DNA from: Syntrophus aciditrophicus | Lineage (GTDB): Bacteria > Desulfobacterota > Syntrophia > Syntrophales > UBA5619 | Direction: 5' to 3' | Length of the DNA: 52,350 bases | NCBI GenBank assembly: GCA_020726025.1 | Contig: DYTH01000004.1 | Location: 1-52,350, forward strand | Shown: positions 11,202-34,460 of the stretch, piece by piece | Layout of the letters: each line of letters begins with the position of its first letter | Position numbering within the stretch: position 1 is the stretch's first letter | Position numbers and translations under genes: made by a program | Notes under the pieces: model-generated | Seen by the model: only the letters and a program-made list of their open reading frames with translations | Database searches by the model: none | What the model was told of the DNA's origin: nothing

Positions 11202-11606
11202 TTATCCCAGCGTCAAAACGGTCACCTGGCTCGGACAGATGGTCATCCCGGGCGCATTGGGCATCAAGCCAAGGGCGTTCTGGCCGGTAACGCTGGTCAG
11301 CCTTTGGGCGGGAACCCCATCCACGAGAATGGTGGCACACCCCACGACATAAAAATTCTGGCCGCAGTCCATCGGGTCAACAACGCCCAGTAAAAGCCCG
11401 GGATTGTCACCGAAGCTGACCAGTCCCCGGGAGAGCAAATTCAGGGAGGGCATGCAATCAACGAGAACATTGTAGGCTGCGGGCGCAGTTGTCGCCGACA
11501 TGTTGATATTGGGATAGGGGATCGGTACGGGACCGACGGGCGTCGGCGTGTTGCAGACGTCCGGGAAGCCCATGTTCATCCCTGCCCCCATCGATAACAT
11601 ATACAT
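11202..11606 (-). CDS. DUF4150/PAAR-like spike-tip protein
   Basis: A 134-residue DUF4150 (PAAR-like) protein: G-F-P-D-V-C-N-T-P-T-P-V-G-P-V-P-I-P-Y-P-N near residues 13-33, C-M-P-S-L-N-L-L-S-R-G, and D-N-P-G-L-L-L-G-V-V. PAAR-like proteins cap the VgrG spike and sharpen the T6SS tip. Many family members carry a toxin domain after the PAAR part, but this one stops right after it, so any cargo must be a separate protein. The start is supported by AAAGGAG eight bases upstream. It is spaced 13 bases from DUF3540 and 20 from the unknown last gene, all within one minus-strand operon. Confidence 0.88.
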   Translation of the reverse strand: MYMLSMGAGMNMGFPDVCNTPTPVGPVPIPYPNINMSATTAPAAYNVLVDCMPSLNLLSRGLVSFGDNPGLLLGVVDPMDCGQNFYVVGCATILVDGVPAQRLTSVTGQNALGLMPNAPGMTICPSQVTVLTLG

Positions 11607-11619: not shown

Positions 11620-12276
11620 TTATCCCAAATGAATCTGTTCAGCGTTGACCGTCACGTTTTCCTCAGCCACGATCATCGTATTTTTTGCATGCATCGTCAT
11701 CAGATCCTCCACAAGAACACGTGCCGAACCGGCCTGGAGTTCATCCTGCTCCTTGACGAACCGGAAAGAGCTTTCCAGTCTTTGAGTCAGCCGACGGAAA
11801 ATCTGGTCGGCATGAACCGCCACCGTCTTGAGACGCTCGATCTGGACCTGCAGCAGGCGTCCCGTGTAGTCAACCCGGCTGATTTTAACAGTGCCGTCCT
11901 CGGCATGGATTTTCAGCTTTTCGGACGAGCAGCCCAGTACTCCCTGGGACGCCAGCGTCATATCCCCCTCCGCCGTCAAGGCCAGACAGCCTTTTTTCAC
12001 ATGGAGGTTAACCTGTCCGTCAAAATTGAGGTCGGTGACCGGATTTTCTTTCTGTCTCCTTTCGAGGATGGCCAGGATGTAATTTCTGCCCACCGAATCG
12101 ACGGAGGCGATGACGGTATCGCCCGGCCGCGGTTCCACCAGACAGCTCGCGGCCCTTGTCATCTTTATATCGCCTGAGGCGGTGTCAACCATAAACGCGC
12201 CTCCTGAACTGCACCGGATTTGCCCGTATTCCAGACAGGGCTGATTGAGCTGTTTTATTTCTGCCAATGCCTGCAT
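11620..12276 (-). CDS. DUF3540 T6SS-associated protein
   Basis: A 218-residue protein of the DUF3540 type. It begins with a small OB-like or beta domain (G-D-T-V-I-A-S-V-D-S-V-G-R-N-Y-I-L-A-I-L-E-R) and continues with a repetitive beta segment (L-H-V-K-K-G-C-L-A-L-T-A-E-G-D-M-T-L-A-S-Q-G), reminiscent of the VgrG spike. A helical stretch follows, then N-T-M-I-V-A-E-E-N-V-T-V-N-A near the end. DUF3540 genes regularly sit between DUF2169/pentapeptide and DUF4150 genes in T6SS loci and are thought to help assemble or load the tip. The mechanism is unknown. The start at 12276 is fixed by AGGGAGG just upstream. The 61-base gap before it contains no other gene. Confidence 0.82.
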   Translation of the reverse strand: MQALAEIKQLNQPCLEYGQIRCSSGGAFMVDTASGDIKMTRAASCLVEPRPGDTVIASVDSVGRNYILAILERRQKENPVTDLNFDGQVNLHVKKGCLALTAEGDMTLASQGVLGCSSEKLKIHAEDGTVKISRVDYTGRLLQVQIERLKTVAVHADQIFRRLTQRLESSFRFVKEQDELQAGSARVLVEDLMTMHAKNTMIVAEENVTVNAEQIHLG

Positions 12277-12337
12277 ATGAACCTCCCTGAACGTTGAAAC
12301 TATGAAACCGTGATAGTGAAAAAATTCTTCTGCCGCA

Positions 12338-13396
12338 TCAATCAGCCGGCGGCGACCAATTTTCCGCAGCGGCCATCTCCTTGTTAGTTCCCCGGATAAG
12401 AGCCTTTTTGGTCCCCTCCCAGATCGTTCCCTCTTCAATCGTAGCGTGCATACGGGCCATGAAGAGGCTTGCATTCCTGAAATCGGCGGCCGTAATATCC
12501 GCGTAAGAGAAATCGGCATAGCCGCAGTTGCAGTTCTGAAACCGGCAGGCCCGGCATTTTGCCTTGTCGAAGACGGCGTTGTAAAGATTCGCCCCGGAAA
12601 AATCGGCGTGGGAAAGATCCGCCTCGCCGAAGTAAGCCTGCATGAAATCGCTTCTCGTCAGGTTGGCCCTGAGGAGCTTTGCCCCCATGAACATCGTGTT
12701 TTGCCCCTTCACCCCTGCGAAGATGGCCCCGGCGAGGTCCGCATTCATGAAATTGGACATGGAGATATCGGAGCCTGTGAAATCGGCGCCTTTCAGATCG
12801 GAGCCCGAAAAATTGACCTGCTGAATGAACATTCCCCGGAAATCCTGGGTCCCCAGAATGCAGTTCTGCAGAAGGGTCTTGAAAAGCCGGGCCTCCTTGA
12901 AAACGGCGCCGGTAACATCCGCGTCGAGGAAAACGGCCTTGGTAAGCGTGGAACCGGTGAAATCGGTTTTTTTCAGCGAGGTGTGCAAAAAACTGTTTTT
13001 TTCGACCTTTGCCCCCCTGATCTTCGCTTCGTCAAGCAGCGCGTCCTGGAAAAGCGACCAGCCGATATTGGCCCCGGTCAGGTCGGCCCCGGTCAGATCA
13101 GCCCCGTTGAGAATGGTTTGAAAGAATTTTACGTTGCGTAAAGAGGCTTCTTTGAGGATCATCTTGCTCATGTTGACTTTGGACAGATCGGTTCCGTCCA
13201 GTTTCACCCCGGTGAAATCGCATTCCTTGAATCCGGTTTTGGCGATCGAAGCACCGGTCAGATCGGCGCCCCGGAACGAAACGAACTCGAAGCGGCCCCC
13301 GCTCAAATCAGCGCCGGACAGATCAACGCCGGAGAGATCCGCATGTTCAATCATCTGATGTCGCCGGATGCTTTCCTGCACTTCCTGCCGCGTCAT
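12338..13396 (-). CDS. Pentapeptide-repeat protein of the T6SS tip module
   Basis: A 352-residue protein made almost entirely of A-(D/N)-L-x-x pentapeptide repeats (about 20-330), predicted to fold as a right-handed quadrilateral beta-helix. It opens T-R-Q-E-V-Q-E-S-I and then D-L-S-G-V-D-L-S-G-A-D-L-S-G, a layout copied from the C-terminal part of the preceding DUF2169 protein, so one probably derives from the other by duplication. Its ATG overlaps that gene's stop by four bases (ATGA), and AAGGGAGG lies about ten bases ahead, so the two are translationally coupled. In T6SS loci such proteins accompany DUF2169 adaptors. A role as scaffold or cargo chaperone is inferred. Confidence 0.85.
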   Translation of the reverse strand: MTRQEVQESIRRHQMIEHADLSGVDLSGADLSGGRFEFVSFRGADLTGASIAKTGFKECDFTGVKLDGTDLSKVNMSKMILKEASLRNVKFFQTILNGADLTGADLTGANIGWSLFQDALLDEAKIRGAKVEKNSFLHTSLKKTDFTGSTLTKAVFLDADVTGAVFKEARLFKTLLQNCILGTQDFRGMFIQQVNFSGSDLKGADFTGSDISMSNFMNADLAGAIFAGVKGQNTMFMGAKLLRANLTRSDFMQAYFGEADLSHADFSGANLYNAVFDKAKCRACRFQNCNCGYADFSYADITAADFRNASLFMARMHATIEEGTIWEGTKKALIRGTNKEMAAAENWSPPAD

Positions 13397-16300
13397 TTCA
13401 GATAATCCTCCCTTTTGTCGAGCTGGGTCATCTTCAGATTGGCCCCGGTGGCGTCGGTATTGCCCACGGTAGCCTTGAACAAATCCACGCCGAACAGGTT
13501 GGCGCCCTGCAGATCCGCATTCACCAGCCGGGCTTTTCTCAGGGAACCCTGGAACATGTTGATTTCTTTCATCCTGGCGCCTTCGAGGTTTGTCTTCGTG
13601 AACCGCGTCTGTTTCGCGGAAATGCGCTGGAGATCGGCCTGTTGGAGATCACAGTCCTCGATAATCGATTCCTGAATGACCGCCCCACGGAACGACGCGC
13701 CCGCCAGATCGGATTCTCGGAAGCACCCGTGTTTCATTCGGATATTGCGAAAATCCGCTTCAGGAAAGGAGGCCTGCCCGCCCATCCGGGCCTTGTCCAT
13801 GTTGGCGCCGGCAAAGGTCACACGTTTTCCCTTTGCCCCGAAGAAAATCGTCGAATCGAGGGTGGCATTGGAGAAATCCCCATTGTCCAGGACGGCATTC
13901 ATAAAAACGCATTTCTTGAAGTTCCCGTCAGGAAACCGGGCGTTCGAGGCTTCCACCTCCGACAGGATGCACATGTTGGCATCCACTCCGGAAAGTTCTG
14001 TTTTTACAAGTTTAGCCTTCTGAAGAACCGACATGTTCAGTTTGACATCCCGCATATTGGCCTCGGTCAGATCCGCCTCCTGCAATATCGCGGAGTCGAA
14101 TTCAGCGGTTTGCAAGTCGGCCTTTTTAAAGAGCGCCTTGGTAAAGATTCCGCGCTCCGCCCGCGCTCCCCTGAGGCAAGCGCCGGAGAAATCAGCCTCC
14201 ATCGCGAGAATCTGGAAGAGTTTCGCCCCCTCGAGGTTCGTGTTGCAGAATTTTGTTTTCTGGCACTGGGCGGTGGAAAGATCAATGCCGCGAAGATCCA
14301 GATCGGACAGATCCACCTCCGCCAGAATCGCCCCGGACAGGGATTCGCCCTTTGAGTGCAGCTCTACGACTTCCTCCCTTGTGAGTTTTCTCACCTTTTC
14401 CGGATCGATCCCGGTTCCTTTGAACTGGGCCTTTATCGAGTCGGGAATCCCGCCTGACTTGGCGGAATCGATTTCTTTCTGCGCCGCAGCCAGTTTTGCC
14501 ATCCCCTCCGTGTAACGAATTTCCGCTTCCTCTCCCATCCGGGTTATCTTGGCGGCGGCGGCGTTCATTTTTACCTCCACCTCCGAGGTCAGCACTCCCT
14601 GAGCCCGGATCTTTTCCCGCTGGACAGCAACCTGATCGGCCATTTCCCTGGCCACCTGAGTGATGGACTTCTGCGGCTGAAGCGACAGCGCCTTGTCCGC
14701 ATCCATGCCGAGTTTTCCGAGAATATCCCTGGCATGATCCGTCATCTCCTTCTGGAGGGCATTGGCCGTATCAACATGGGGCTGTGCCGCCGCCTTGATT
14801 TCGTTCGTCAACGAAGCCACCAGCGCGGGTATGTCGGGTATGGCAAGGCCGAAGTCTGAAAAAGGCTTCTTGGCTGCCGGTTCACCGGGTTCCGGAAACT
14901 CCGGCCCGATTGCGTGTTTCCGGGCTAAATCCGGCGGCAGGGCCTCCATGATCCACTGGCGGAGATCGACCTTTTTCCCGACCGCATCGAGCACATCCTT
15001 TCCCCTGGGAAGCTCGATCCCGCGGGAGTTCGGATAAACGGACCGCCACTTCATTATTTTTGCCTCGGCCATCCCTTTTTCTGGAAAAACCACCAGCAGC
15101 GCCGGGGAGTCCTTCATCGCCTCCGCCGCATCTTTCGGAGGCTTCTCTCCGCTGTCTTTCAGGACAATGATCGAACAGGCATCGCCCGCCTCCTGCTCGA
15201 GGAGCAGCGCCTCCAGTTCGGTGGCCGCAACAATCCAGGGCGTGTCGTCATCCACGACCGCAGCCGGTAAGACGCGCGGCGACTCCTCCGAGCCTTCAAT
15301 CAGAGAGGATTCCATGGGGTCAATTTTCTCGCGGAAATCCGTGTTGCAGATCTCTATCCTGTTGAGATGCGCTTCCTGAAACCGTGGCACAACCAAGCCG
15401 GGCGGCAATCTCAGCGAAACGCTGCCGCCGTCTGCATCCTTTTTCTCTTCCAGACCCCACAGCGTCCGTTCTTCTGTCTTCTCTTCCAGATTGACGCCGA
15501 GCCACGCCCGTTCGATGGTTTTTCGCGTGAAACCCATCTGTTTGAGAAGTTCCGCCATTTCGCGATGCTCCTCAAGGCGCCTCCGGCGCTGAACCACGAA
15601 TGGAAACCCCCGATCGTGCCAGGGATTCGACGGCCTGCTGACCGCCGCAGGATTGTCGGGATCAATGCCTGACTTGGCCAGCACATTGGGTGGAATTCTC
15701 TCTTTGAGGCTGTTGGAGAGCCCCTTCTGGGCATCCGCGGCCTTTTGCCTGGCCTGCGCAACCTCCGCCATCGTCTTGTCCAGATGCCCGTCCGTTTTCG
15801 CCAGCTTGTCCCGGATGCCATCAAAATCAACACCCCTGATATTGACTATGTGGCTGTAGCGGGCCTGCATTTTCCCGGTCATCCCCTCCATATTGTTCAG
15901 AAGGACAGCAGACTCCGCAAGAACCTTCTTCGCTTGGGCGACTGTCTCTTCCGGCGTCTGCGGCATGAAAGGGGCTTTCCCGAGCACCCTGGCCTTGACC
16001 TGCTCGATCTCCTTGGGAAGGTTCTTGACGAGCAGCATGGCGTCGTGAATCTTCTTTTTAGCCGCTTCCAGCGGCGCCTGGTCAATGGGGACCATCCGGT
16101 TGAGAACCTTTTTCTGTTCTTCCAGGTAGTATTGGAGGGGCTTGGGCGTCTCATCCTCTTGCTCGCTGTCAAGGAAGATGCGCTGCACGTCGGCATACTC
16201 CTCATCGAGGATTTCGGCGGTTCCCCTGTGGATGATTACCCCCCTCATGACCGTGGGGAAAAGCCAGAGGGTGTCGATCCGCGTGGTGACTTCCTGGAAG

Positions 16301-17148
16301 ATTTCGTCGCTTTTCTGCCCTGGCTTCAGGGTGGTCTTTTTCGTGACGAAACAGCGCGGACGGAGGCGTGGGATGTGGGACTTGATCAGCGGCAGATCGG
16401 GGTGCATGTTCCCGATTTCGATGGGATCGCCGGCCTTGAAGAATCCCTCGCTGAGCTGGTCCTCCGGCGCCGCGTTGAAATACTCATAATTCATGTCCTG
16501 CGGAAAATTGGGCCAGTGCTCCTTGAGCCATTTATCGTCGTATGTCCCCGTCTTTCTCATCCGCTGCGGCCACATCATATCGAGGGGGCCAAATCCCGCC
16601 GGGTCGGGCCGGTCGGATGGTGAACCGATGAGGCGGTCGGGGAGTTCTACGTTGGGAAGATAGACACGGAACTCGCCGTCGGGCATCCGTGCCGGGTCTA
16701 TCCCTCTTCCAAGGGGGTTCTTCTCGAAATCCTTTCCGCCAAAGGCATTATTCCAGGTCAAAGGCGCCTCGCTGAATCCCTCCGGTTGACTGATGGCAGT
16801 AATTACCCCCCCTGTCTTTTTCCAGTAGCGATCACCGAAAATGTTCAAGGTCTTGCGTATGTTTCCGGCACGAAAAAAAACCTGAGACGCCGGGCGCGTC
16901 TGGCCGCGGGGGGAAAAGCACGAGCCCGTGACCAGCGCCTCCGCCCTTGGCTTGGCCATCCCCTGGTCAAACACGACGCCCTGTCCGAGCTGGGCCGGGA
17001 CAACCGACCAGAGTTCCTGTTCTTTCAAGGGCGCATCGGGATCGTTCAGATCGAAAAAGATCAGGACGGAGACGGCCAGATAAAGCTTGTCCGCGATCCC
17101 GAAAGACTTGATCAGAAGCGATTGTTCGTTCTTTTTAAATATCTTCAT
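13393..17148 (-). CDS. DUF2169 T6SS adaptor fused to long pentapeptide-repeat domain
   Basis: A 1251-residue, three-part protein. Residues 1 to about 290 form a DUF2169 domain with W-N-N-A-F-G-G-K-D, N-P-L-G-R-G, G-F-G-P-L-D-M-M-W-P-Q-R and N-A-A-P-E-D-Q; DUF2169 proteins act as loading adaptors for T6SS cargo. A helical, charged central part (about 300-900) contains likely coiled coil and a T-R-E-E-V helix. From about 920 to the end there are pentapeptide repeats (G-x-D-L-S-D-L-D-L-R-G and many A-x-L/F). Most DUF2169 proteins I know are much shorter, so the fusion is notable. It starts three bases after the vgrG1 stop and overlaps the next gene by four bases, so it should be made in step with VgrG. 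Confidence 0.88.
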   Translation of the reverse strand: MKIFKKNEQSLLIKSFGIADKLYLAVSVLIFFDLNDPDAPLKEQELWSVVPAQLGQGVVFDQGMAKPRAEALVTGSCFSPRGQTRPASQVFFRAGNIRKTLNIFGDRYWKKTGGVITAISQPEGFSEAPLTWNNAFGGKDFEKNPLGRGIDPARMPDGEFRVYLPNVELPDRLIGSPSDRPDPAGFGPLDMMWPQRMRKTGTYDDKWLKEHWPNFPQDMNYEYFNAAPEDQLSEGFFKAGDPIEIGNMHPDLPLIKSHIPRLRPRCFVTKKTTLKPGQKSDEIFQEVTTRIDTLWLFPTVMRGVIIHRGTAEILDEEYADVQRIFLDSEQEDETPKPLQYYLEEQKKVLNRMVPIDQAPLEAAKKKIHDAMLLVKNLPKEIEQVKARVLGKAPFMPQTPEETVAQAKKVLAESAVLLNNMEGMTGKMQARYSHIVNIRGVDFDGIRDKLAKTDGHLDKTMAEVAQARQKAADAQKGLSNSLKERIPPNVLAKSGIDPDNPAAVSRPSNPWHDRGFPFVVQRRRRLEEHREMAELLKQMGFTRKTIERAWLGVNLEEKTEERTLWGLEEKKDADGGSVSLRLPPGLVVPRFQEAHLNRIEICNTDFREKIDPMESSLIEGSEESPRVLPAAVVDDDTPWIVAATELEALLLEQEAGDACSIIVLKDSGEKPPKDAAEAMKDSPALLVVFPEKGMAEAKIMKWRSVYPNSRGIELPRGKDVLDAVGKKVDLRQWIMEALPPDLARKHAIGPEFPEPGEPAAKKPFSDFGLAIPDIPALVASLTNEIKAAAQPHVDTANALQKEMTDHARDILGKLGMDADKALSLQPQKSITQVAREMADQVAVQREKIRAQGVLTSEVEVKMNAAAAKITRMGEEAEIRYTEGMAKLAAAQKEIDSAKSGGIPDSIKAQFKGTGIDPEKVRKLTREEVVELHSKGESLSGAILAEVDLSDLDLRGIDLSTAQCQKTKFCNTNLEGAKLFQILAMEADFSGACLRGARAERGIFTKALFKKADLQTAEFDSAILQEADLTEANMRDVKLNMSVLQKAKLVKTELSGVDANMCILSEVEASNARFPDGNFKKCVFMNAVLDNGDFSNATLDSTIFFGAKGKRVTFAGANMDKARMGGQASFPEADFRNIRMKHGCFRESDLAGASFRGAVIQESIIEDCDLQQADLQRISAKQTRFTKTNLEGARMKEINMFQGSLRKARLVNADLQGANLFGVDLFKATVGNTDATGANLKMTQLDKREDYLK

Positions 17149-17151: not shown

Positions 17152-19497
17152 CTATACTGTACAGGTAGTTCCCGATATGTGGAGATTAGTCGAGTTCACA
17201 CGCTGGACAGCGCCGCTCACCCTGGTGCTGGATCCGGAAACGGTCACGCTGCCGCCCTCAACTACTGTATCGTCGCCGGAGACAGTGGTGTCATCCCCTG
17301 CAACATCCGTGGCGTCGCCCTGGACTTCTGTCTCCTCGCCGGTGACGTCTGCCGCGAATCCCTGAATAACTGTATGGTTCCCCGTTATACGTTCGGCATT
17401 TCCCCGGACAACTGTTCTTACGCCGGTGACGTTTGTCGCATCTCCTTTTACCGTTGTGTGCTCTCCATGGACGGTAGTGGCATTTCCTTTGACCTTTGTC
17501 TTGCTTCCCGTTATGGTATTTACGGTACCCCGAATCTCGACGCTGTTGCTGCCCAGTTCCAGTTCCTGTTCCCCCAGATGAACAGTCTGCCCCCTGAATT
17601 CATGTTGATGGCTTTTGTATTCCTGGCTTCCTGCGATCTTCAGCTCCGTATCGAATCCAATGACTGTTTCCCAGCTTGCTCCCAGCACATTGAGGGAGTA
17701 AAGAACGACGACCGTCTCCGTTTCTTCCCCTAAAACAATCTTGTTTTCCGCTGCCGCCATGATATCGAGGTAGCCGCTGGTGGCCAGGTGGATACCAGCC
17801 TTGCCTTTCTCCTTCTTGCCGGTTTCCCAGTCGGAGATATAATCCCAGACGCCCTCTGCCGCGGATTTGATATAATCCCCGACGCCCTCTGCCGCGGATT
17901 TGATATATTTCCAGACTGTCTCGTCATAGTCGTCAAAAGGAAAAGGGTCGTTGGGCGCGCCGATGCGGATGAAGCTCTTCTGTTTTGGGGAGTGCATCAG
18001 AATACGCTCGCTTTCCTCCCTGTCCTCCATGTGAATCCGGTTGCCGCCGGACGAGGTAATCGCCGCCATCGTCTGGTTATCCGCCGTTACCGGCGAGGGG
18101 GTTTCCGGATTCGGAACGGCGCCCGCGATAATCGGGCGATCCGGGTCCCCGTCGATGAAAGTCAGAAGAACCTCCGTTCCCTTGTGAAGCGGAAAATGCA
18201 TTCCGTGACCGCTTCCCGCATACGGCTGGGCCATCCTTACCCACGCCGAGGCCTTCCCGTCCTTCCGGCCCGACAGATCGAACGGCAAAACCACCTTGTA
18301 CCGGCCATGCCCGTCCAGCTCCGCGTACTTGCCGCTTCCCGCCGCGTCTATCCGGGCTATGATCGTTCCGGCTATCCGTGGCCTTTGAGTCCTGCTCTCC
18401 GGACGAAACTGCACCGAAGCCGGTATAACCGTGAAATCGTTGCGGTAATAAACACGCCGCTCCGCCTCGGACAACTGCGACTGCAACCCCGCCATCAGAT
18501 AGCCCGCCTGACTCCCCTCATGCCGGATATCCGTCGCCAGATACCGCTGATTGAATTCCCCGCGGTAATGATCCTTCAGGTCAAACGTAAAGCCCGGCTC
18601 CATATAGGGAACCGAACTCTCCCCCCGAAACTCCTCCCGGCGGCACAAAATCGACTCCGCTCTTATTTGCGCCAGACGCGTCCCTTCCTCCGGTGTCTCG
18701 ATGTGACCCCCGTAATAGTAAAACTGCCCCCGCCCGCCCGCCGATACCGAGGCGCTCCCGCTTACCTCCAGGGAAGGCTTCATGTAGTTATAGTCCTTCA
18801 GAAAAATACTCCCCGGGGTAAGAGACCGGCGACAATTGAAGAAGGACACCACCTCCCCCATGTGCAGCGCGTCTAACCCCGACGGCGGCGAATAATGAAG
18901 CTCGCTTCCCTGCGGCATCTGTGTGTGGGCAATGGCCGTGTCCGTAAAGACGACCTTCTCCGCATCGCCGGACTGATCGAAGTAATAGTAGATTCCCTCC
19001 CGTTCGCACCAGCGCGAAATGAAGTCAAGATGGCTCTCCCCGTACTGGCAGACATAGTCCAGAAAACCATAGGAACCCCGCAGACGAAAATCGTAGTCCA
19101 CCGACGTCAGCCCGCCATCCTTCAATACCAGCTCCACAATCTCCGGGACCGATTTGTCCAGAAAGATCTGGTTGTGATGGGTCAAAGACAGCCACCACAG
19201 GCGCGGAACCAGGCAGGCACGGTAAAAACAGAGACCATCCGCCTCCTGCAACTGCTCAAAATGACGCAGAATACCGTGATACGCCACGTCGTTTTCATCA
19301 CCCCGGTGGATAATGAAACGGGCCGGATTCTGCAACACCTCCGCCAGATCAATCTCCAGATTATCCGAAACCAGCATCGCCTCAAACTGGTAAGTCCGGG
19401 ACAGTCCCTCCTCGCCCTGAAAACTGACAACCCCGAATGTATCAGGAGATAGCCCGTCCGATATGAATGAAAACCTGCTGTCCGTTAGTCCCTTCAT
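17152..19497 (-). CDS. vgrG: T6SS spike protein VgrG (copy 1)
   Basis: A 781-residue VgrG/TssI. Residues 1 to about 370 are the gp27-like base, with the conserved C-Q-Y-G-E-S-H-L-D-F-I-S-R-W and E-R-E-G-I-Y-Y-Y-F. About 375-480 is the gp5-like OB domain, including R-P-I-I-A-G-A-V-P-N-P and G-G-N-R-I-H-M-E-D. The rest is a needle. The first 518 residues are identical to copy 2; residues beyond are unique. They include an 11-residue repeat (Y-I-K-S-A-A-E-G-V-x-D) and, over roughly the last 110 residues, heptads T-x-V-x-G-x-x that should form the spike's beta-helix or beta-prism. The next gene (DUF2169) starts three bases after the stop. VgrG trimers cap the Hcp tube and carry the PAAR tip. Confidence 0.95.
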   Translation of the reverse strand: MKGLTDSRFSFISDGLSPDTFGVVSFQGEEGLSRTYQFEAMLVSDNLEIDLAEVLQNPARFIIHRGDENDVAYHGILRHFEQLQEADGLCFYRACLVPRLWWLSLTHHNQIFLDKSVPEIVELVLKDGGLTSVDYDFRLRGSYGFLDYVCQYGESHLDFISRWCEREGIYYYFDQSGDAEKVVFTDTAIAHTQMPQGSELHYSPPSGLDALHMGEVVSFFNCRRSLTPGSIFLKDYNYMKPSLEVSGSASVSAGGRGQFYYYGGHIETPEEGTRLAQIRAESILCRREEFRGESSVPYMEPGFTFDLKDHYRGEFNQRYLATDIRHEGSQAGYLMAGLQSQLSEAERRVYYRNDFTVIPASVQFRPESRTQRPRIAGTIIARIDAAGSGKYAELDGHGRYKVVLPFDLSGRKDGKASAWVRMAQPYAGSGHGMHFPLHKGTEVLLTFIDGDPDRPIIAGAVPNPETPSPVTADNQTMAAITSSGGNRIHMEDREESERILMHSPKQKSFIRIGAPNDPFPFDDYDETVWKYIKSAAEGVGDYIKSAAEGVWDYISDWETGKKEKGKAGIHLATSGYLDIMAAAENKIVLGEETETVVVLYSLNVLGASWETVIGFDTELKIAGSQEYKSHQHEFRGQTVHLGEQELELGSNSVEIRGTVNTITGSKTKVKGNATTVHGEHTTVKGDATNVTGVRTVVRGNAERITGNHTVIQGFAADVTGEETEVQGDATDVAGDDTTVSGDDTVVEGGSVTVSGSSTRVSGAVQRVNSTNLHISGTTCTV
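17836..17916 (-). repeat. 33-bp tandem repeat inside vgrG1
   Basis: Two 33-base units (17836-17868 and 17869-17901) differ at one base, and a partial third unit follows (17902-17916). They encode Y-I-K-S-A-A-E-G-V-G/W-D twice. The repeat lies directly after the end of the segment shared with vgrG2, in the linker before the spike, and is a probable slippage product that changes linker length without shifting frame. Confidence 0.8.
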
Positions 19498-19514
19498 GGT
19501 ACCCAGCTCATCAT
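17943..19514 (-). repeat. 1572-bp direct repeat, copy in vgrG1
   Basis: This block matches 20245-21816 with an offset of 2302 bases. Besides the vgrG frame, unrelated frames on both strands translate identically in the two copies, which means near-complete nucleotide identity rather than mere protein conservation. It runs from the leader just upstream of the start codon (through 19514) into codon 518. Confidence 0.92.
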
Positions 19515-21799
19515 ATTATCATGTCAACCACACCGGAAACATTCACATGAGCGGAGGTAATTTCCTGAACATCCGCGCTCACCGCCGTACCCTCTCCCTG
19601 GACTGTAACCGTGCCTCCCATAATATGGCTTCCTTGCCCGGAAACAGTGGTATGGCCTCCCGAAACCCTCAAGGCGTTTCCCTGAACCGATGTAAGGGTT
19701 CCCGATACCGTGGTCGCATGGCCGTTGACAATGGCGCCCTCCCCCGTAACGTTTTCTGCTTTTCCCAGCACCTCCGAATCCGACCCGACGACATTGGTGG
19801 CGCTTCCCTTGACGGTTGTACGGGCGCCCTCAACCGTTCCGACATTGCCTGTTACCCCCGTTTTGTTGCCGACAACCTCGGTGGCGGTCCCGACAAAGCG
19901 GATTTTACTGCCTTTGATCTTTATCACTTGACCGCCTACGGTGATTGTCTCGGGGTGAAAATCGTGTTTCAGGCTGTCAAAGGCTTTATGTACGGCCATA
20001 TGCAGTTCTCCGTCCAGGCCGATGACGGTATCCCAGCGCGCCCCGATAACGTTATGCGCGTAGCCGACAATAAAAGTTTCCGTCTCCTCGCCGAGTATCA
20101 GCTTGTTGGATGCCTCCGCCGTGATATCGAGAAGACCGTTGGTAGCAAGATGGATGCCGCTTCTTCCTTCGGTATGCTCATAGTGGCCATCTTTATCCTT
20201 CGTGCGGAAATGCCAACTATGGGGCCCCTCGTCATCGGCGACAGAAGGGTCGTTGGGCGCGCCGATGCGGATGAAGCTCTTCTGTTTTGGGGAGTGCATC
20301 AGAATACGCTCGCTTTCCTCCCTGTCCTCCATGTGAATCCGGTTGCCGCCGGACGAGGTAATCGCCGCCATCGTCTGGTTATCCGCCGTTACCGGCGAGG
20401 GGGTTTCCGGATTCGGAACGGCGCCCGCGATAATCGGGCGATCCGGGTCCCCGTCGATGAAAGTCAGAAGAACCTCCGTTCCCTTGTGAAGCGGAAAATG
20501 CATTCCGTGACCGCTTCCCGCATACGGCTGGGCCATCCTTACCCACGCCGAGGCCTTCCCGTCCTTCCGGCCCGACAGATCGAACGGCAAAACCACCTTG
20601 TACCGGCCATGCCCGTCCAGCTCCGCGTACTTGCCGCTTCCCGCCGCGTCTATCCGGGCTATGATCGTTCCGGCTATCCGTGGCCTTTGAGTCCTGCTCT
20701 CCGGACGAAACTGCACCGAAGCCGGTATAACCGTGAAATCGTTGCGGTAATAAACACGCCGCTCCGCCTCGGACAACTGCGACTGCAACCCCGCCATCAG
20801 ATAGCCCGCCTGACTCCCCTCATGCCGGATATCCGTCGCCAGATACCGCTGATTGAATTCCCCGCGGTAATGATCCTTCAGGTCAAACGTAAAGCCCGGC
20901 TCCATATAGGGAACCGAACTCTCCCCCCGAAACTCCTCCCGGCGGCACAAAATCGACTCCGCTCTTATTTGCGCCAGACGCGTCCCTTCCTCCGGTGTCT
21001 CGATGTGACCCCCGTAATAGTAAAACTGCCCCCGCCCGCCCGCCGATACCGAGGCGCTCCCGCTTACCTCCAGGGAAGGCTTCATGTAGTTATAGTCCTT
21101 CAGAAAAATACTCCCCGGGGTAAGAGACCGGCGACAATTGAAGAAGGACACCACCTCCCCCATGTGCAGCGCGTCTAACCCCGACGGCGGCGAATAATGA
21201 AGCTCGCTTCCCTGCGGCATCTGTGTGTGGGCAATGGCCGTGTCCGTAAAGACGACCTTCTCCGCATCGCCGGACTGATCGAAGTAATAGTAGATTCCCT
21301 CCCGTTCGCACCAGCGCGAAATGAAGTCAAGATGGCTCTCCCCGTACTGGCAGACATAGTCCAGAAAACCATAGGAACCCCGCAGACGAAAATCGTAGTC
21401 CACCGACGTCAGCCCGCCATCCTTCAATACCAGCTCCACAATCTCCGGGACCGATTTGTCCAGAAAGATCTGGTTGTGATGGGTCAAAGACAGCCACCAC
21501 AGGCGCGGAACCAGGCAGGCACGGTAAAAACAGAGACCATCCGCCTCCTGCAACTGCTCAAAATGACGCAGAATACCGTGATACGCCACGTCGTTTTCAT
21601 CACCCCGGTGGATAATGAAACGGGCCGGATTCTGCAACACCTCCGCCAGATCAATCTCCAGATTATCCGAAACCAGCATCGCCTCAAACTGGTAAGTCCG
21701 GGACAGTCCCTCCTCGCCCTGAAAACTGACAACCCCGAATGTATCAGGAGATAGCCCGTCCGATATGAATGAAAACCTGCTGTCCGTTAGTCCCTTCAT
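19511..21799 (-). CDS. vgrG: T6SS spike protein VgrG (copy 2)
   Basis: A 762-residue VgrG. The start at 21799 is the same ATG context as in copy 1; 22 extra codons upstream in frame are unlikely to be used. The gp27-like base and gp5-like OB domain (residues 1-518) are identical to copy 1. The remaining about 244 residues are different and end in a longer heptad-repeat needle (T-x-V-x-G-x-x) with M-G-G-T-V-T-V-Q-G-E-G-T-A-V near the end. The stop lies 13 bases before the start of vgrG1. Identical bases with different needles suggest that tip specificity is swapped while the shared part is kept uniform by recombination. Confidence 0.94.
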   Translation of the reverse strand: MKGLTDSRFSFISDGLSPDTFGVVSFQGEEGLSRTYQFEAMLVSDNLEIDLAEVLQNPARFIIHRGDENDVAYHGILRHFEQLQEADGLCFYRACLVPRLWWLSLTHHNQIFLDKSVPEIVELVLKDGGLTSVDYDFRLRGSYGFLDYVCQYGESHLDFISRWCEREGIYYYFDQSGDAEKVVFTDTAIAHTQMPQGSELHYSPPSGLDALHMGEVVSFFNCRRSLTPGSIFLKDYNYMKPSLEVSGSASVSAGGRGQFYYYGGHIETPEEGTRLAQIRAESILCRREEFRGESSVPYMEPGFTFDLKDHYRGEFNQRYLATDIRHEGSQAGYLMAGLQSQLSEAERRVYYRNDFTVIPASVQFRPESRTQRPRIAGTIIARIDAAGSGKYAELDGHGRYKVVLPFDLSGRKDGKASAWVRMAQPYAGSGHGMHFPLHKGTEVLLTFIDGDPDRPIIAGAVPNPETPSPVTADNQTMAAITSSGGNRIHMEDREESERILMHSPKQKSFIRIGAPNDPSVADDEGPHSWHFRTKDKDGHYEHTEGRSGIHLATNGLLDITAEASNKLILGEETETFIVGYAHNVIGARWDTVIGLDGELHMAVHKAFDSLKHDFHPETITVGGQVIKIKGSKIRFVGTATEVVGNKTGVTGNVGTVEGARTTVKGSATNVVGSDSEVLGKAENVTGEGAIVNGHATTVSGTLTSVQGNALRVSGGHTTVSGQGSHIMGGTVTVQGEGTAVSADVQEITSAHVNVSGVVDMII

Positions 21800-21816
21800 G
21801 GTACCCAGCTCATCAT
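20245..21816 (-). repeat. 1572-bp direct repeat, copy in vgrG2
   Basis: Partner of 17943-19514. The right boundary includes the 17 bases upstream of the start codon, where the sequence of the intergenic leader then diverges (G at 21817 against A at 19515). The left boundary lies at the same codon in both genes. This is a recent duplication or gene conversion of the vgrG 5' two-thirds. Confidence 0.92.
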
Positions 21817-21904: not shown

Positions 21905-24148
21905 TCATAGTCTTATCTCCTGTTCGGCCAGCACCACCGTTGAACCGGTTATATCCTGTACATTTCCACTTACAGTCGTGTTGTCCCCTGTAACTGTCAC
22001 TTCTCCGCCTGTCACTTGCGTGCTTTGTCCCGTTACTTTCGTACGTTGGCCGCTGATATTGGTCGCTTTTCCCCGCACCGTTGTACCGTTGCCGGTTACA
22101 TTCACGGCGTCCCCCTGCACTGTGGTCGATTCGCCTTCCACCACAGCGGCGTTGCCAAAGATCCTCGTATCCCTGCCGCTGACGGTCGTGGCGTCGCCCC
22201 TGACGGTCGTATGGTTTCCGGCAACATCCTGCGCCGTGCCGGAGATGGTCGTTTCCTCTCCTCCCACTGTGACGATGTCTCCGGTAACATGAACCCCGTC
22301 CCCCACTACTCTGATCGTTTCCTCTCCCAGATGTATCTCCTGAACATTGCACTCATGATGGATGGGGGCGAAAGCGAGTCTCCCACCTATTTTGAGAGCC
22401 CCTTCAAGGCCGATGACGGTTTCCCAATTTACCCCCAAAGTGTTATGGACGAGAAGCCCGACAACCGTCTCCGTCTCCTCGCCGAGGATAAGCTTGTTGG
22501 ATGTCTCCGCCGTAACATCCAGAAGTGAGCTGGTGGCCAGACGCACGCCGAAGTTTTCTTCGGTCTTTTCGTTCTTGCCTTCATCCGCTACAGAAGGGTC
22601 ATTGGGCGCGCCGACGCGGATGAAGCTTTTCTGTTTGGGAACATGCATCAGGATCCGCTCGCTTCCCTCCCGGTCCTCCATGTGGATCCGGTTGCCGCCG
22701 GACGAGGTAATCGCCGCCATCGTCTGGTTGTCCGCCGTCACCGGCGAGGGGTTTTCCGGATTCGGAACGGCGCCCGCGATAATCGGGCGATCCGGATCCC
22801 CGTCGATGAAGGTAAGAAGAACATCTGTACCTTTGTGCAGCGGAAGGTGCATCCCGTGGCCGCTTCCCGCATACGGCTGGGCCATCCTCACCCATGCCGA
22901 GGCCTTCCCATCCTTCCGGCCGGATTGATCGAACGGCAAAATCACCTTGTACCGGCCGTACCCGTCGAGTTCAGCGTACTTGCCGCTTCCGGAAGCGTCG
23001 ATTCTGGCGATGATAGTTCCATAAATCCTCGGTTTTTCAGCCCTGACCTCCGGTCGGAACTGAACATCGGCACGAATCGCCGTAAAGCTGTTCCGGTAGT
23101 AAACCTGCGCCTCTCTTTCCGACAGCCCTTCACGGATGCCGGCGATGAGATAACCCGTCTGGCTCCCCTCGTGGCTGATCCGTGCAGTCAGGTATTTCCG
23201 ATTCAGGCTCTTGCGGTAGTGGTCCTCGAGATCGCAGGTAAACCCGGGAGCCAGGCAGGGGACCGAACTCTCCCCATTAAACGTTTCCTGCCGGCAGAGG
23301 ATGCCCTCGGCACGGATCTTCGCCAGCCGTGCGCCCTCCTCGCTTGTCTGAAAACGTTCATCGTAATAGTAGGCCTGACCGCGGCCGTGTTGATCAACCA
23401 AGGCATTCCCGGTAATTTCGAGTGACGGTTTGAGATAGTTGTAATCCTTGAGAAACACGCTTCCGGGAACCGTTTCCCGGCGGCAATTGAAGGATTTTAC
23501 CACCTCTGTTTCGTGTAGCGCGTCCAGCCCCGAGGTGGGCGAGTAGTGAATGGTCTTCCCCCGGGGAAGATCAGCGTGGGCGATCGCCGTGTCGGTGAAG
23601 ACCACCCTCTCGCCGTTCGGCGTCTGCTCGAAGAAATAATAGACCCCCTCGCGTTCCAGCCACCGGGAGACAAAGTTCAGATGACTCTCGCCGTACTGAC
23701 AGACGTAGTCGAGCGGATCGTATGTTTCCTTGAGACGAAACTCAAAATCGAGGGTGGTAAGGCCGCCATCCTTGAGTACATCCGTTACAATGTCCGGCAG
23801 GGATTTGTTAAGGATGACCTGGTTGTGTCTGGCAAGCGAGAGCCACCAGAGCCTGGGCGCCAGAAACGCCCTGTAGAACACGTAGTTATCCACGGCGTGA
23901 AGCTGCTCGAAATGGGCGATGACGCCCTGATAAACGACGTCGTCTTCCCCCTCGCGATGGATGATCAGCCGGGCGGGATTTTGAACAATCCCCTTGAGAT
24001 CAATCCCTTTGTCGGTTGAAACAAGCATGATTTCAAATTCATAGGGAACCGATAGCGCCTCACTTCCCTGGAAGTGAACCACCCCGAATGTATCCGGTGC
24101 AAGCAGGCTGGAAATGAACGAGAATTTTTTTGACGTCAAATAATCCAT
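21905..24148 (-). CDS. vgrG: T6SS spike protein VgrG (copy 3)
   Basis: A 747-residue VgrG, clearly paralogous to copies 1 and 2 but diverged throughout. It has D-Y-V-C-Q-Y-G-E-S-H-L-N-F-V-S-R-W and E-R-E-G-V-Y-Y-F-F in the base, and R-P-I-I-A-G-A-V-P-N-P-E-N-P-S-P-V-T in the OB domain. The OB and linker region is closest to the other copies, notably around G-N-R-I-H-M-E-D-R. The C-terminal needle (about the last 140 residues) is again built of T-x-V-x-G-x-x heptads. It is the most clpV-proximal copy and probably the parent of the array. The 105-base gap to vgrG2 and the 106-base gap to clpV hold no genes that I can see. Confidence 0.94.
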   Translation of the reverse strand: MDYLTSKKFSFISSLLAPDTFGVVHFQGSEALSVPYEFEIMLVSTDKGIDLKGIVQNPARLIIHREGEDDVVYQGVIAHFEQLHAVDNYVFYRAFLAPRLWWLSLARHNQVILNKSLPDIVTDVLKDGGLTTLDFEFRLKETYDPLDYVCQYGESHLNFVSRWLEREGVYYFFEQTPNGERVVFTDTAIAHADLPRGKTIHYSPTSGLDALHETEVVKSFNCRRETVPGSVFLKDYNYLKPSLEITGNALVDQHGRGQAYYYDERFQTSEEGARLAKIRAEGILCRQETFNGESSVPCLAPGFTCDLEDHYRKSLNRKYLTARISHEGSQTGYLIAGIREGLSEREAQVYYRNSFTAIRADVQFRPEVRAEKPRIYGTIIARIDASGSGKYAELDGYGRYKVILPFDQSGRKDGKASAWVRMAQPYAGSGHGMHLPLHKGTDVLLTFIDGDPDRPIIAGAVPNPENPSPVTADNQTMAAITSSGGNRIHMEDREGSERILMHVPKQKSFIRVGAPNDPSVADEGKNEKTEENFGVRLATSSLLDVTAETSNKLILGEETETVVGLLVHNTLGVNWETVIGLEGALKIGGRLAFAPIHHECNVQEIHLGEETIRVVGDGVHVTGDIVTVGGEETTISGTAQDVAGNHTTVRGDATTVSGRDTRIFGNAAVVEGESTTVQGDAVNVTGNGTTVRGKATNISGQRTKVTGQSTQVTGGEVTVTGDNTTVSGNVQDITGSTVVLAEQEIRL

Positions 24149-24254: not shown

Positions 24255-26882
24255 CTAATCAAACTTGAATGTAAACTCCCCGCCGTCATCCACATCGAGA
24301 TGGACATTCGTCGGCATGCCGCCTTCGGTGATATGGGAAAGTATAGTCATAGAGAGCCGTGGGAGGACGTTTCCGTTCAGGATGTACTCGATATTCCTCG
24401 CCCCCGTTTCGACCTCGGTGCACCTCTCGGTGATCCGGTCCACGACCGCTGGGGCATAACTCATCGCCATCCGGTTATTTTCCTGAAGCATACGCTGGAT
24501 TTTTCCCATTTTCAGTTCAACGACAAGACGCATCGCTTCGGCATTCAGGCTGTAAAAGGGAACAACATTCATCCGGGCAAGCAGCGCCGGTTTGAAATGG
24601 GCGGAGAGAATCGGACGAACCGCGCCCAAAACCGTTTCCAGCGCGGGAGGTTCATCTCCCGCAGTCATCTCCTGAATGACATCGGAGGCAAGGTTGCTTG
24701 TCAGAATCATGATCGTGTTCTTGAAACTGATCTCCTTCCCCTCGCCGTCGGTCAGAGTCCCCTTGTCGAATACCTGGTAGAAGAGATTCATCACGTCCAA
24801 ATGGGCCTTTTCGACCTCGTCGAGCAGCACCACCGAATAGGGCTTCTGCCGGACCGCCTCGGTCAGCATCCCCCCTTCGCCGTAGCCGACATATCCGGGA
24901 GGGGAGCCGATCAGGCGGCTTAACGTGTGGGCCTCCTGAAACTCGCTCATGTTTATCGTCACGGTATGCCGCTCGCTCCCGAAGAGGATGTCCGCCAGCG
25001 CAAGCCCTGATTCCGTCTTTCCCGTGCCGCTCGGACCGGCGAGCAGAAACACGCCGAGTGGCTGGTTGGGATTTTTGATTCCCGATTTGGCGGCCCGGAT
25101 CACCTCGGCCACCACCGCCAGCGCTTGATCCTGCCCCTTGATGCGCTCCTTCAGGCGTTCCTCAAGATTAAGGATCGTCCGCGCCTCGTCCTTGAGCACC
25201 TTGCCAAGCGGAATCCCTGTCCAGTCCGAAACCACCTGGGCGACCACATCCGGATTGACCTCGATCTGAATCAGCGGATGGTCTTTCTGGATGGCGGCAA
25301 GGGCCTGTTCCGCCTCGGCCATTTTTGCTTCTACCGATTCTTTCGTTTCCCCCGCTTTTTCGAGGAACCGGTAGCGCTCCTCCCGTATCTTGACAACCTC
25401 GGCCGCCGCTTCTTTTTCCCTGCGCCAGCTTTCCTCAAGTTTGTCGGCCTCAGCCGCGGCAATCTTTCTTTTCTCTATAAGGCCTTGGTACTTTTCGTCG
25501 TCAATTGTTGCTCCGCCGACGCGGTCGCGGTCTATCGCCTTGATCTCCCTGTCCAGGGCCTGAATCGTCCGCTGCTTGTCCTCCAGCGCCGCCGGTTTCG
25601 CGCTCAGGTTAACCTTCACGCGGGCGCAGCTCGTATCGAGAAGGTCTATCGCCTTGTCGGGAAGAAACCGGCCGGTTATGTAGCGGTCGGACAAAACCGC
25701 CGCCGCCTCGACGGCGTCGTCCCTGACGATGACGTTGTGGTCCTTTTCATAATTTGCCTTCAACCCGCGCAGCATGATCTTTGTCGTCTCGACGGAGGGC
25801 TCGTCGAGTTTGACGAGCTGGAAACGACGGGCCATTGCGGGGTCCTTTTCAAAATATTTTTTGTATTCCGTCCAGGTGGTCGCCGCCACCGTCCGCAATT
25901 CTCCCCGCGCCAAAGCCGGCTTGAGCAGATTCGCCGCGTCCGACCCTCCGGAAGGGCCGCCCGCGCCGATCAGGGTATGGGCCTCGTCAATAAAAAGTAT
26001 TATTGGGGTTTCCGAGGCCTTTATCTCATTGATAACCCCTTTGAGACGGTTCTCAAATTCTCCCTTGACCCCGGCCCCCGCTTCGAGAAGACCCATGTCG
26101 AGACCGAGGAGTTTTACATCTTTGAGCATGTCTGGAATATCGCCCTCAACGATTCTGAGGGCCAGACCCTCGACCACGGCGGTCTTGCCGACGCCCGGCT
26201 CGCCGACGCAGATGGGGTTGTTCTTGCGCCTGCGGGCGAGGATGTCTATCATCTGGCGTATCTCATTATCCCGTCCGAACACCGGGTCAATCCCGCCTGT
26301 CCGCGCCCTTTCGGTAAAATCGGCGCAGAAACGGGCAAGCGCTCCCCCTTCGGTTTTTCCCGGCGCCTGCTCGCCCTTTGCGCCCACGCCGGCGCCCACC
26401 GCGCTTTTTTCCATCGAAGGCTGCGTCAGGCTCCAAAACTCGTTTATCAGCGCCTCCCGGCCTATCTTCATGATAAGATCGGCATAGCGCCCCATCGAAA
26501 AAAACGTCGGCTTGTTCAAAAAAGACAGCAGAACAGCGCCGGAGCGGATTTTTGTCTCTCCAAGGTCAATAGAGGAGACAAGCCATGCGTCCTGAAGCAG
26601 CTCCATCACGAGCGGAGAGAATACCGGTTTGGCCGCATTGCCTGTCTTGAACTCTTCGAGTGTTTCCTCCAGCGCCTTTTGCACCCTCCCGACATCGAGG
26701 TCAAAACGGCGGAAAATCAACGGGATGTCCGAACGGGGTTCTTCGAGGAGCCTGGCAAGGAGATGCTCGACGGTTATCTCGTAATGGGTGCGGGAAACGC
26801 AGAGCCCCGCAGCATTCTGCAGCGCGCTTGTGCAAAAACCGTTTAAATGGAGAAGCAGCGACTTGATATCAACGGAAACCAT
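24255..26882 (-). CDS. tssH: T6SS sheath-recycling AAA+ ATPase ClpV
   Basis: An 875-residue ClpB-type double AAA+ ATPase that unfolds contracted TssB-TssC sheaths. The Clp N-domain spans about 1-160. The first Walker A is G-E-P-G-V-G-K-T at 227-234 and the first Walker B I-L-F-I-D-E-A-H at 295-302. A helical middle domain covers about 420-530. The second Walker A is G-P-S-G-T-G-K-T at 616-623, with pore loop G-Y-V-G-Y-G-E-G at 663-670 and Walker B V-V-L-L-D-E-V-E-K at 684-692. All motor motifs are intact. The ATG at 26882 follows a GGAAGGGTG. It lies between tssG (27 bases upstream) and vgrG3. Confidence 0.96.
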   Translation of the reverse strand: MVSVDIKSLLLHLNGFCTSALQNAAGLCVSRTHYEITVEHLLARLLEEPRSDIPLIFRRFDLDVGRVQKALEETLEEFKTGNAAKPVFSPLVMELLQDAWLVSSIDLGETKIRSGAVLLSFLNKPTFFSMGRYADLIMKIGREALINEFWSLTQPSMEKSAVGAGVGAKGEQAPGKTEGGALARFCADFTERARTGGIDPVFGRDNEIRQMIDILARRRKNNPICVGEPGVGKTAVVEGLALRIVEGDIPDMLKDVKLLGLDMGLLEAGAGVKGEFENRLKGVINEIKASETPIILFIDEAHTLIGAGGPSGGSDAANLLKPALARGELRTVAATTWTEYKKYFEKDPAMARRFQLVKLDEPSVETTKIMLRGLKANYEKDHNVIVRDDAVEAAAVLSDRYITGRFLPDKAIDLLDTSCARVKVNLSAKPAALEDKQRTIQALDREIKAIDRDRVGGATIDDEKYQGLIEKRKIAAAEADKLEESWRREKEAAAEVVKIREERYRFLEKAGETKESVEAKMAEAEQALAAIQKDHPLIQIEVNPDVVAQVVSDWTGIPLGKVLKDEARTILNLEERLKERIKGQDQALAVVAEVIRAAKSGIKNPNQPLGVFLLAGPSGTGKTESGLALADILFGSERHTVTINMSEFQEAHTLSRLIGSPPGYVGYGEGGMLTEAVRQKPYSVVLLDEVEKAHLDVMNLFYQVFDKGTLTDGEGKEISFKNTIMILTSNLASDVIQEMTAGDEPPALETVLGAVRPILSAHFKPALLARMNVVPFYSLNAEAMRLVVELKMGKIQRMLQENNRMAMSYAPAVVDRITERCTEVETGARNIEYILNGNVLPRLSMTILSHITEGGMPTNVHLDVDDGGEFTFKFD

Positions 26883-26909
26883 ATTTTCACCCTTCCATTA
26901 AATAAAATA

Positions 26910-27935
26910 TCAATTCATGGCTCCGATATCCAGAAGACGCACAGAGGCGTCTTCTGGCGGAAATCCCTCCGAGAAAAGCCAGGTATTCCAGCCAAGCCTG
27001 CACCACTGTTCATCGCCCAGCTTTGTCGTCCCTGTCTCCACTGGTTTCAACATCGCCTCCAGGTCCCAGGACAACGGCTGATCCAGATAAAAACCGATGA
27101 AGGTCTTCAATTCATGAAATGCGGGTTTATCGGGCAGGTAGAGGTTGAACTTTTCGATGTCAAGCGGGCCGACAGTGATTCTGAACTTACCGAGGAGGTC
27201 GGAAATTTCGTTTCCCAGGCAGGCATCCTTTCCCAGCGTATTTCCTGACAGACCCAGAACAAACCGCTGCTCCCGGGGAATTTTCACCGTCCTTTCAACG
27301 CACTGTACAACCCGGAGGGACTCTTCATCGAGAACGTCGGCCAGAAGCGACTGCAATCCGGCGGCGCTGCGGGGCAACTGCGTCATCAGCCCCGCGTAAC
27401 GGAGTTTCCCGTAATGATTTTCGACACCCTCGCGCAACCTTTCCCCGCCGAGACCGATCAGACAGTACAGCCTCTCCAGGACATCTTGATTCTGCTCCTC
27501 AATAAGGTTGAAGAATAACCGGCGCGAAGCCCATGCCTGGAAGTACAGGCTGTAAAGACGGGAGTTGAAAACATCCAGAAAATCCCTGCTTATGGTCTGC
27601 TCTTGCGATTGTTCCTCAAACAGGTCTTCGGTATAAAACGCCGGAAGGGGCGAAGAGGCGCCGTACAAGCCGAGGAATGTCGCAGTAATCAAAAAATGTT
27701 CCGGCGCATCCGGGGTTTCCTCAATGGAAATTACATCCGTTTCAGGAAAGGCAAAAGACAAATCGGGCCGGACCCTGATTTGTTTGAGCACATCGTGTTC
27801 CGGTGTGTCAGGGTTCATCTTTTTACGGAGAAGGAAGCGCAGGTAGCGATACGCCTGAATAAAGGTGTAGCGCCGTCCCTCTTCGAGCAATCGTTTTTTT
27901 AAAGCAGGGGTCTGCTCCCCATCCGTGCCGGCCAT
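26910..27935 (-). CDS. tssG: T6SS baseplate subunit TssG
   Basis: A 341-residue TssG (ImpH/VasB family) baseplate wedge protein. Family features seen are the N-terminal L-L-E-E-G-R-R-Y-T-F-I-Q-A-Y-R, then I-R-V-R-P-D-L-S-F-A-F-P, and F-L-G-L-Y-G-A-S-S-P-L-P-A-F-Y-T-E near residues 88-104. L-R-Y-A-G-L-M-T follows, and the C-terminal L-G-x-x-x-W-C-R-L-G-W-N-T-W-L closes the domain. It overlaps the 3' end of tssF by 37 bases, and GGGGAGA precedes its ATG, so the two partners, which bind each other in the wedge, are translated together. Confidence 0.93.
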   Translation of the reverse strand: MAGTDGEQTPALKKRLLEEGRRYTFIQAYRYLRFLLRKKMNPDTPEHDVLKQIRVRPDLSFAFPETDVISIEETPDAPEHFLITATFLGLYGASSPLPAFYTEDLFEEQSQEQTISRDFLDVFNSRLYSLYFQAWASRRLFFNLIEEQNQDVLERLYCLIGLGGERLREGVENHYGKLRYAGLMTQLPRSAAGLQSLLADVLDEESLRVVQCVERTVKIPREQRFVLGLSGNTLGKDACLGNEISDLLGKFRITVGPLDIEKFNLYLPDKPAFHELKTFIGFYLDQPLSWDLEAMLKPVETGTTKLGDEQWCRLGWNTWLFSEGFPPEDASVRLLDIGAMN

Positions 27936-29632: not shown

Positions 29633-29647
29633 TGGTGCAATCCGTGA

Positions 29648-30097
29648 TTAACTGTCTATGCGAACCTTTCCTTCGGTCGTCACGACGGTTTCAACCCCTA
29701 TCGGAACAGTTCTATCCCTGTTCAGAGGGTCAATCATCTGCGCTTCAAGCCTGAAGCGCAGGCTGTGCATATCACCCGGCGTCGGATCAAAATGAATACG
29801 AACCCCATGCAGACGGGGTTCGTATTTCCGTATCATACCGGCGATGATTTGTTCCATCTCCGCGGCCGTTTTTGATAAATCATCCACGGGAAAATTGGTA
29901 AAATCCGGCATCCCGTAATCGTCGGCAATCAGCACGCTTCCCTGCCGCGTGTTGAGCATGTTGCGGAGGTTCCTGATTACGGAACGGAGGCCCCCCGAAA
30001 CATCCCTTACGCCTCGTTGCGCGGTTCCTCTCTCCAGACACCGTATTTTCTCCAACAGACTCTCTTCATCCATAAAAGAACCAGAATAACCCCCCAT
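29648..30097 (-). CDS. tssE: T6SS baseplate subunit TssE (gp25-like)
   Basis: A 149-residue protein of the phage T4 gp25 type. It contains R-N-L-R-N-M-L-N-T-R-Q-G-S-V-L-I-A-D-D-Y-G-M-P-D (split here as family motifs N-M-L-N-T-R and Y-G-M-P-D) and the C-terminal Y-E-P-R-L-H-G-V-R-I. TssE joins the baseplate to the sheath and starts sheath polymerisation. Two starts are possible: the ATG at 30097 and a Met nine codons in (30073). Neither has a clear ribosome site. The 85-base gap to hcp contains no gene. Confidence 0.93.
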   Translation of the reverse strand: MGGYSGSFMDEESLLEKIRCLERGTAQRGVRDVSGGLRSVIRNLRNMLNTRQGSVLIADDYGMPDFTNFPVDDLSKTAAEMEQIIAGMIRKYEPRLHGVRIHFDPTPGDMHSLRFRLEAQMIDPLNRDRTVPIGVETVVTTEGKVRIDS

Positions 30098-30182
30098 GCC
30101 GGGGGCAATAACAAGCGCACCGAACGATGAAAATCGGCTTCAAAGTCGCTGGAACCCGCAAGAATACTGCAACGTAACGCTA

Positions 30183-30662: not shown

Positions 30663-30777
30663 GGCGCTTTTCTCCTTTCATGAAAAAGCTGGTTCGTTCC
30701 ATCAACATAATCCTGCCGCACGACATTAAATGCCCATATTTTTAAAAAGCGATGAGTGTTTCCCTGTTTGTTTCCGC

Positions 30778-32262: not shown

Positions 32263-32278
32263 ATCTCCCCCCTCCTTG

Positions 32279-32761: not shown

Positions 32762-32797
32762 TTTTCACCTCCTGTGATTATTTGTTGTTACACGAAA

Positions 32798-32818: not shown

Positions 32819-32868
32819 GCGTATCTCTAAATATCTTTTTTCTGATCACCCAAATGTTTAACGGTGGG

Positions 32869-34440: not shown

Positions 34441-34460
34441 ACAACACCACCAATCAGTGA

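Follow-up and report, generated by a model that had tools for sequence, protein, structure and literature searches.

Three adjacent vgrG genes, called here A, B, and C, are carried in the window (i.e., the whole 52,350-bp stretch of Syntrophus aciditrophicus DNA that we analyzed), and the first 518 codons of A and B are identical at every nucleotide, whereas the needles that follow them are diverged. We consider it fairly probable that A, B, and C are resident paralogues of one T6SS, the cores of which were recently homogenized by recombination between neighbors. They offer a clean natural example of a T6SS spike hub homogenized at the DNA level with needles staying different, and the case separates two readings that are easily merged, i.e., that the tip moves and that the core moves.

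Organization of the three vgrG genes

The three genes are located on the minus strand, A at 17152..19497 (781 aa), B at 19511..21799 (762 aa), and C at 21905..24148 (747 aa), and each of them encodes the gp27-like hub and the gp5-like OB domain (PF05954 and PF04717) of a VgrG/TssI protein. VgrG B also matches TIGR03361 with 381.7 bits, for a cut-off of 186.35. Its open reading frame can be read from 21865 (TTG), and the ATG at 21799 is the start that matches that of A. The gene order begins with a complete T6SS core cluster (24255..40772, minus strand; ClpV, TssG, TssF, TssE, Hcp, TssC, TssB, TssA, TssM, TssL, TssK, and TssJ, assigned by Pfam) and continues with C, B, and A, then with the genes for TvpAB, TvpB, TvpC, and a PAAR-like protein. 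The stop of C and the start of B are separated by 105 nt, the stop of B and the start of A by 13 nt, and no effector, immunity, or adaptor gene is found in the gaps between C, B, and A.

An exact repeat covers the cores of A and B

Comparing the window with itself reveals one outstanding repeat. Positions 17943-19514 and 20245-21816 are 100.000% identical over 1,572 bp, with 0 mismatches and 0 gaps (blastn; repeat finding agrees). The two copies are in direct orientation, with a period of 2,302 bp, and each consists, on the minus strand, of a 17-nt leader and codons 1-518, of vgrG A for copy 1 (17943..19514) and of vgrG B for copy 2 (20245..21816). The identity starts 17 nt before each ATG (ATGATGAGCTGGGTACC-ATG on the minus strand) and ends one base past codon 518. 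The earlier note had described a near-identical block of 1572 bp including the 5′ leader. Its length and its reality are confirmed, but the block is exact, and the leader, which is indeed included, is merely 17 nt long. Upstream of A, this leader holds the TGA stop codon of B; upstream of B, where it is located 88 nt downstream of the stop of C, it has no such role. When the own genome is searched with the block, only these two places are found, plus gene C at 72%, and the 88-nt stretch upstream of the leader of B (21817-21904) has no further copy in the own genome beyond the 17-nt leader. Scanning for promoters and terminators gave matches no more numerous than in shuffles.

The silent sites are the most informative on the age of this identity. 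Between A and B, 0 of the ~251 four-fold sites differ in the block, against 49 of 73 in the adjacent needles (Fisher p ~3e-40), i.e., silent-site identity is confined to a tract lying between diverged flanks, as in gene conversion or concerted evolution. The 95% upper bound on divergence within the block is 0.19% over all sites and 1.2% over four-fold sites. These values agree with the DNA-level identity, due to a recent duplication or to gene conversion, that had been proposed for this block. They also leave next to no probability to an old duplication, the copies of which would have stayed identical through selection acting on protein or DNA. In its favor is the functional constraint on the VgrG core that is seen throughout the family. 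Against it, the many silent differences that the earlier note had named as the sign of an old duplication under protein constraint are absent, their count being 0, while C, in the same cluster, differs at 75 of 113 four-fold sites outside the patch described below. The silent sites have thus already refuted this explanation.

Both shared stretches stop at the core/needle border

The boundary of the block is sharp and had been placed exactly where the spike begins, which is supported to within ~12 residues. Indeed, residue 506 of B is the last one matched by the curated core model TIGR03361, so that the block stops at the family-wide border between VgrG core and needle. The solved structures of VgrG1 (4MTK) and VgrG (7Q5P) align to about residue 510. 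Because homology between the paralogues breaks off there, a conversion tract would stop at this border without any special process.

A second, older tract is found in vgrG C. The core of this gene shows 63% DNA identity to A/B up to codon 386 and 89-90% beyond it, as far as the core/needle border at which the A/B block also ends, the best two-rate breakpoint being located at codon 386 (patch at 22594..22991, minus strand, codons 386-518). Between B and C, four-fold sites differ at 15 of 63 positions in codons 388-518, versus 75 of 113 in codons 1-387 (Fisher p 6e-8). When B or C is compared with five outgroup VgrGs, silent differences do not fall in the patch (p 0.28-1, with a rise in the comparison of B with L020), so that simply slow silent evolution of this segment does not account for it. 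Such a patch is the trace left by an older transfer, involving C and the A/B lineage, which stopped at this border too.

Age and relationship of the needles

The needle prisms of A, B, and C, measured from the motif G-[IV]-[HR]-L-A-T to the end, contain 214, 215, and 214 residues, are aligned without internal gaps, and share 42-46% identity. The repeating V-x-G/T-x-V units of a beta-prism needle are seen directly in these prisms. What varies in length is the linker between core and prism, with 49 residues in A, 29 in B, and 15 in C; that of A contains a 33-bp tandem duplication (17836..17901, minus strand), the units of which are 97% identical. The "different needles" of the earlier note are therefore different in that their sequences have diverged, but they are not unrelated, being homologues of equal length. 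Their GC3 values (0.591, 0.596, and 0.600 for A, B, and C) are equal and hence give no compositional sign of a recent import.

A relative of needle A is found in a genome of the same order and of another family (G060), where a needle fragment of 180 residues, which covers the needle side only as the contig ends inside the needle, without core, shares 57-58% identity with needle A, against 37-39% with B and C. This fragment is directly followed by homologues of TvpAB (77% identity), TvpB (75%), TvpC (66%), and of the conserved gene beyond the PAAR position (63%). A needle tree including distant relatives had branches too long to be informative, and a four-sequence test was used instead. The quartet (A,G060)|(B,C) is recovered with UFBoot/SH-aLRT values of 86/84, a moderate likelihood support with long B and C branches, and in 1993 of 2000 distance bootstraps. 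It thus seems that needle A has belonged to this Tvp module for a long time. Diverged silent sites, equal length, equal GC3, and the needle-A homologue beside Tvp in G060 together point to the needles, which are diverged homologues, as old residents rather than recent swaps; the recent event would have concerned the core, which would be the part that moved.

These data bear on another explanation, in which a whole vgrG (leader, core, and needle) was recently duplicated in tandem and one of the two needles was then replaced by an incoming or distant one, i.e., by a true grafting of the tip. It has the merit of a precedent in V. cholerae, for which the exchange of needles while the VgrG core is conserved has been documented in vgrG-3 (PMC5361080), and it fits the fact that the repeated unit takes in the 5′ leader, with a clean junction at the stop codon of B. 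However, needles equal in prism length and GC3, and homologous to each other and to that of C, are what is expected of residents, the link of needle A with a homologous Tvp module already exists in G060, and a search of the own genome found no donor needle elsewhere. We consider this second explanation rather unlikely.

One Tvp module and one PAAR-like tip

Immediately after vgrG A, and likewise on the minus strand, comes the gene for TvpAB (13393..17148; 1251 aa), which combines DUF2169 (PF09937, 1.4e-80) and pentapeptide repeats (PF00805). It is followed by those for the pentapeptide repeat protein TvpB (12338..13396; 352 aa; PF00805), for the DUF3540 protein TvpC (11620..12519; PF12059, 1.5e-54), the true start of which is probably further downstream, and for a PAAR-like tip protein of the DUF4150/PIPY type (11202..11606; PF13665, 3.2e-30), which contains PIPYPN. 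No second tip protein was found beside the three vgrGs. Such a set downstream of vgrG (PF09937 with PF00805, PF00805, PF12059, and PF13665) is that of a class III Tvp module, the definition of which was taken from the Serratia marcescens system (PMC13373197). A two-step assembly, in the course of which VgrG takes the place of TvpC, is a further trait of this class. DUF2169 proteins serve PAAR-like (PIPY) tips as chaperones (PMC11883445). We found no convincing sequence similarity between TvpC and the needles. One vgrG occupies the position before TvpAB in each of 15 further Tvp loci that we inspected (L005, L006, L020, L022, L030-L039, and L042).

Beyond the PAAR-like gene, positions 10408-11184 (minus strand) encode a protein of ~258 aa that recurs in many class III Tvp loci, close to their PAAR/DUF3540 end. 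Its identity is 36-68% in 8 relatives, and it has no Pfam or NCBIfam match. Judging from its position, it may be an accessory or immunity protein, so far undescribed, of the Tvp system or the T6SS.

This organization also bears on the tip-swapping process, the footprint of which the earlier note saw in the block. The variable 3′ ends come without an effector, immunity, or adaptor gene of their own, and a single Tvp/PAAR set follows them; with needles that appear to be old residents, tip swapping is not shown and is partly supported at most.

Comparison with known systems

This kind of gene evolution is already known from Agrobacterium and Vibrio, and the twist here is that three adjacent genes share one class III module. 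In the survey that covers the Agrobacterium case, nearly identical VgrG paralogues were rare, with 4 of 48 genomes at >=95% protein identity (PMC6971182). As here, VgrG1/VgrG2 of Agrobacterium tumefaciens C58 and VgrGa-d of strain 1D1609 are near-identical paralogues with a divergent C-terminus and DUF2169 and DUF4150 partners (PMC6971182). However, the Agrobacterium genes occupy separate loci, each with its own associated genes, whereas those described here are back to back before one common module, which is of class III (pentapeptide proteins and DUF3540), and their core identity reaches 100% at the DNA level. In Vibrio cholerae, vgrG-3 and the displacement of effectors in aux-clusters likewise show a conserved vgrG 5′ part placed on different 3′ ends by homologous recombination (PMC5361080). 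Effector domains make up these 3′ ends, or effector/immunity pairs travel with them, and the ends differ between strains, while in our case both ends are present in one genome, as plain beta-prism needles with no paired immunity gene.

The class III Tvp system of Serratia marcescens (VgrG1-Paar1, TvpAB, TvpB, TvpC) has the same partner set as here, i.e., vgrG, DUF2169-pentapeptide, pentapeptide, DUF3540, and PAAR-like (PMC13373197), with one VgrG instead of three adjacent ones. Back-to-back vgrGs before one TvpAB are also found in Thiodictyon sp. (L008), where they number four. Unlike those of A and B, their cores are diverged (~0.4-0.75 aa identity over most of the length) and contain no identical block. 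We do not claim conversion in this array: the drop of silent differences in codons ~388-518 is weakly significant in T1/T2 (p 0.03) and T1/T3 (p 0.016), and there is none in T3/T4. Three of these four vgrGs (L008, 7342-18400) have nearly identical C-termini (RVATEVxEVATNVSVISxVIEMM), as if docking the same PAAR.

With their needles matched in length and a single class III Tvp module behind them, the three VgrGs constitute a concrete setting in which cap sharing or a mixed trimer can be tested. A, B, and C might be the subunits of an obligate hetero-trimeric spike, with a shared hub, three register-matched and equally long needles forming three prism faces, and one Tvp/PAAR cap, which we consider improbable. 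The equal length of the needles does not decide the question, since a shared cap predicts it just as a mixed trimer does. In Serratia, VgrG1 and VgrG2 apparently form no heterotrimers (PMC4924876). In Aeromonas, a single VgrG was insufficient, and this effect was traced to effectors, not to a heterotrimer requirement (PMC8668125).

Route, direction, and copy number

In the explanation that we favor, A, B, and C would be long-standing paralogous VgrG spikes that share a single class III Tvp module and a single PAAR-like tip for their loading. A recent homologous recombination would have overwritten the entire 518-codon core of A or B with that of the other, by gene conversion or by cycles of duplication and loop-out leading to the same result. 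An earlier and smaller event, involving C and the A/B lineage, would have had the same effect on codons 386-518, both tracts stopping where DNA homology stops, at the core/needle border. An identical core would keep the docking to Hcp and to the baseplate uniform, while separately evolving needles would persist. The leader argues against conversion: its 17 nt are outside the coding homology, so that a duplication carrying its leader explains their identity more directly, and conversion needs either an overshooting tract or leaders that were already alike. The same leader hints weakly at A as the donor and at a transfer from A to B, since the stop codon of B that it contains is needed upstream of A and purposeless upstream of B. 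A search of relatives found none with both the A and B genes, and the one same-genus genome searched (G001) has no such vgrG.

The block had also been expected to allow deletion or inversion by homologous recombination, and possibly to confuse assembly. Deletion is indeed possible, and amplification as well, but inversion between the copies is not: between direct repeats, the outcome of recombination would be the loss or the multiplication of the 2,302-bp unit. The expectation about assembly is right in a specific way, a short-read graph being unable to fix the number of units formed by the core and needle B. The window corresponds to an entire contig (G000:C47, 52,350 bp) in a MAG of 2.16 Mb and 149 contigs, 92% complete, and an exact repeat of 1572 bp is longer than ordinary short-read inserts, loops of the type X-R-Y-R-Z being resolved by rule or coverage. 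The path leader-core-needle B-leader-core-needle A could thus have been forced by the assembly or by a mixture of strains, with 0, 1, or several units of core and needle B in reality, or with needles coming from two strains. In two relatives as well, a contig break falls inside vgrG, at core residue 493 for G234 and within the needle for G060. However, the contig contains four different block junctions (C-spacer/core, core/needle B, needle B/leader, and core/needle A), each of which normally needs its own supporting reads. Together they are impossible from a single-copy locus in one strain, which makes a trivially duplicated single-copy locus unlikely, and the needle B/leader junction is intact in reading frame, stop codon, and spacing. 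We consider such an artefact quite unlikely as an explanation, the copy number of the 2,302-bp unit in this MAG contig being uncertain. As for the contigs ending inside vgrG in G234 (C40, L007) and G060 (C72, L025), the core is possibly repeated there too; these breaks are compatible with the same repeat but do not count as evidence of it.

Other observations

The T6SS is patchy in the order: TssK (PF05936) is present in 4 of 61 genomes searched, and it is absent from the same-genus genome. Near the start of the window, positions 895-1788 (plus strand) encode a tyrosine recombinase (PF13495 and a partial PF00589), which stops after position 75 of the 172 of the catalytic domain and looks like the product of a truncated gene of the integron-integrase type. 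Dispersed intergenic repeats are found at 10219-10317 and 52248-52345, at 7613-7658 and 10332-10378, and at 43133-43214 and 48036-48117; they are 46-100 bp long and 80-89% identical, with short palindromes inside (of the CCGGCTTTCGCCGG type).
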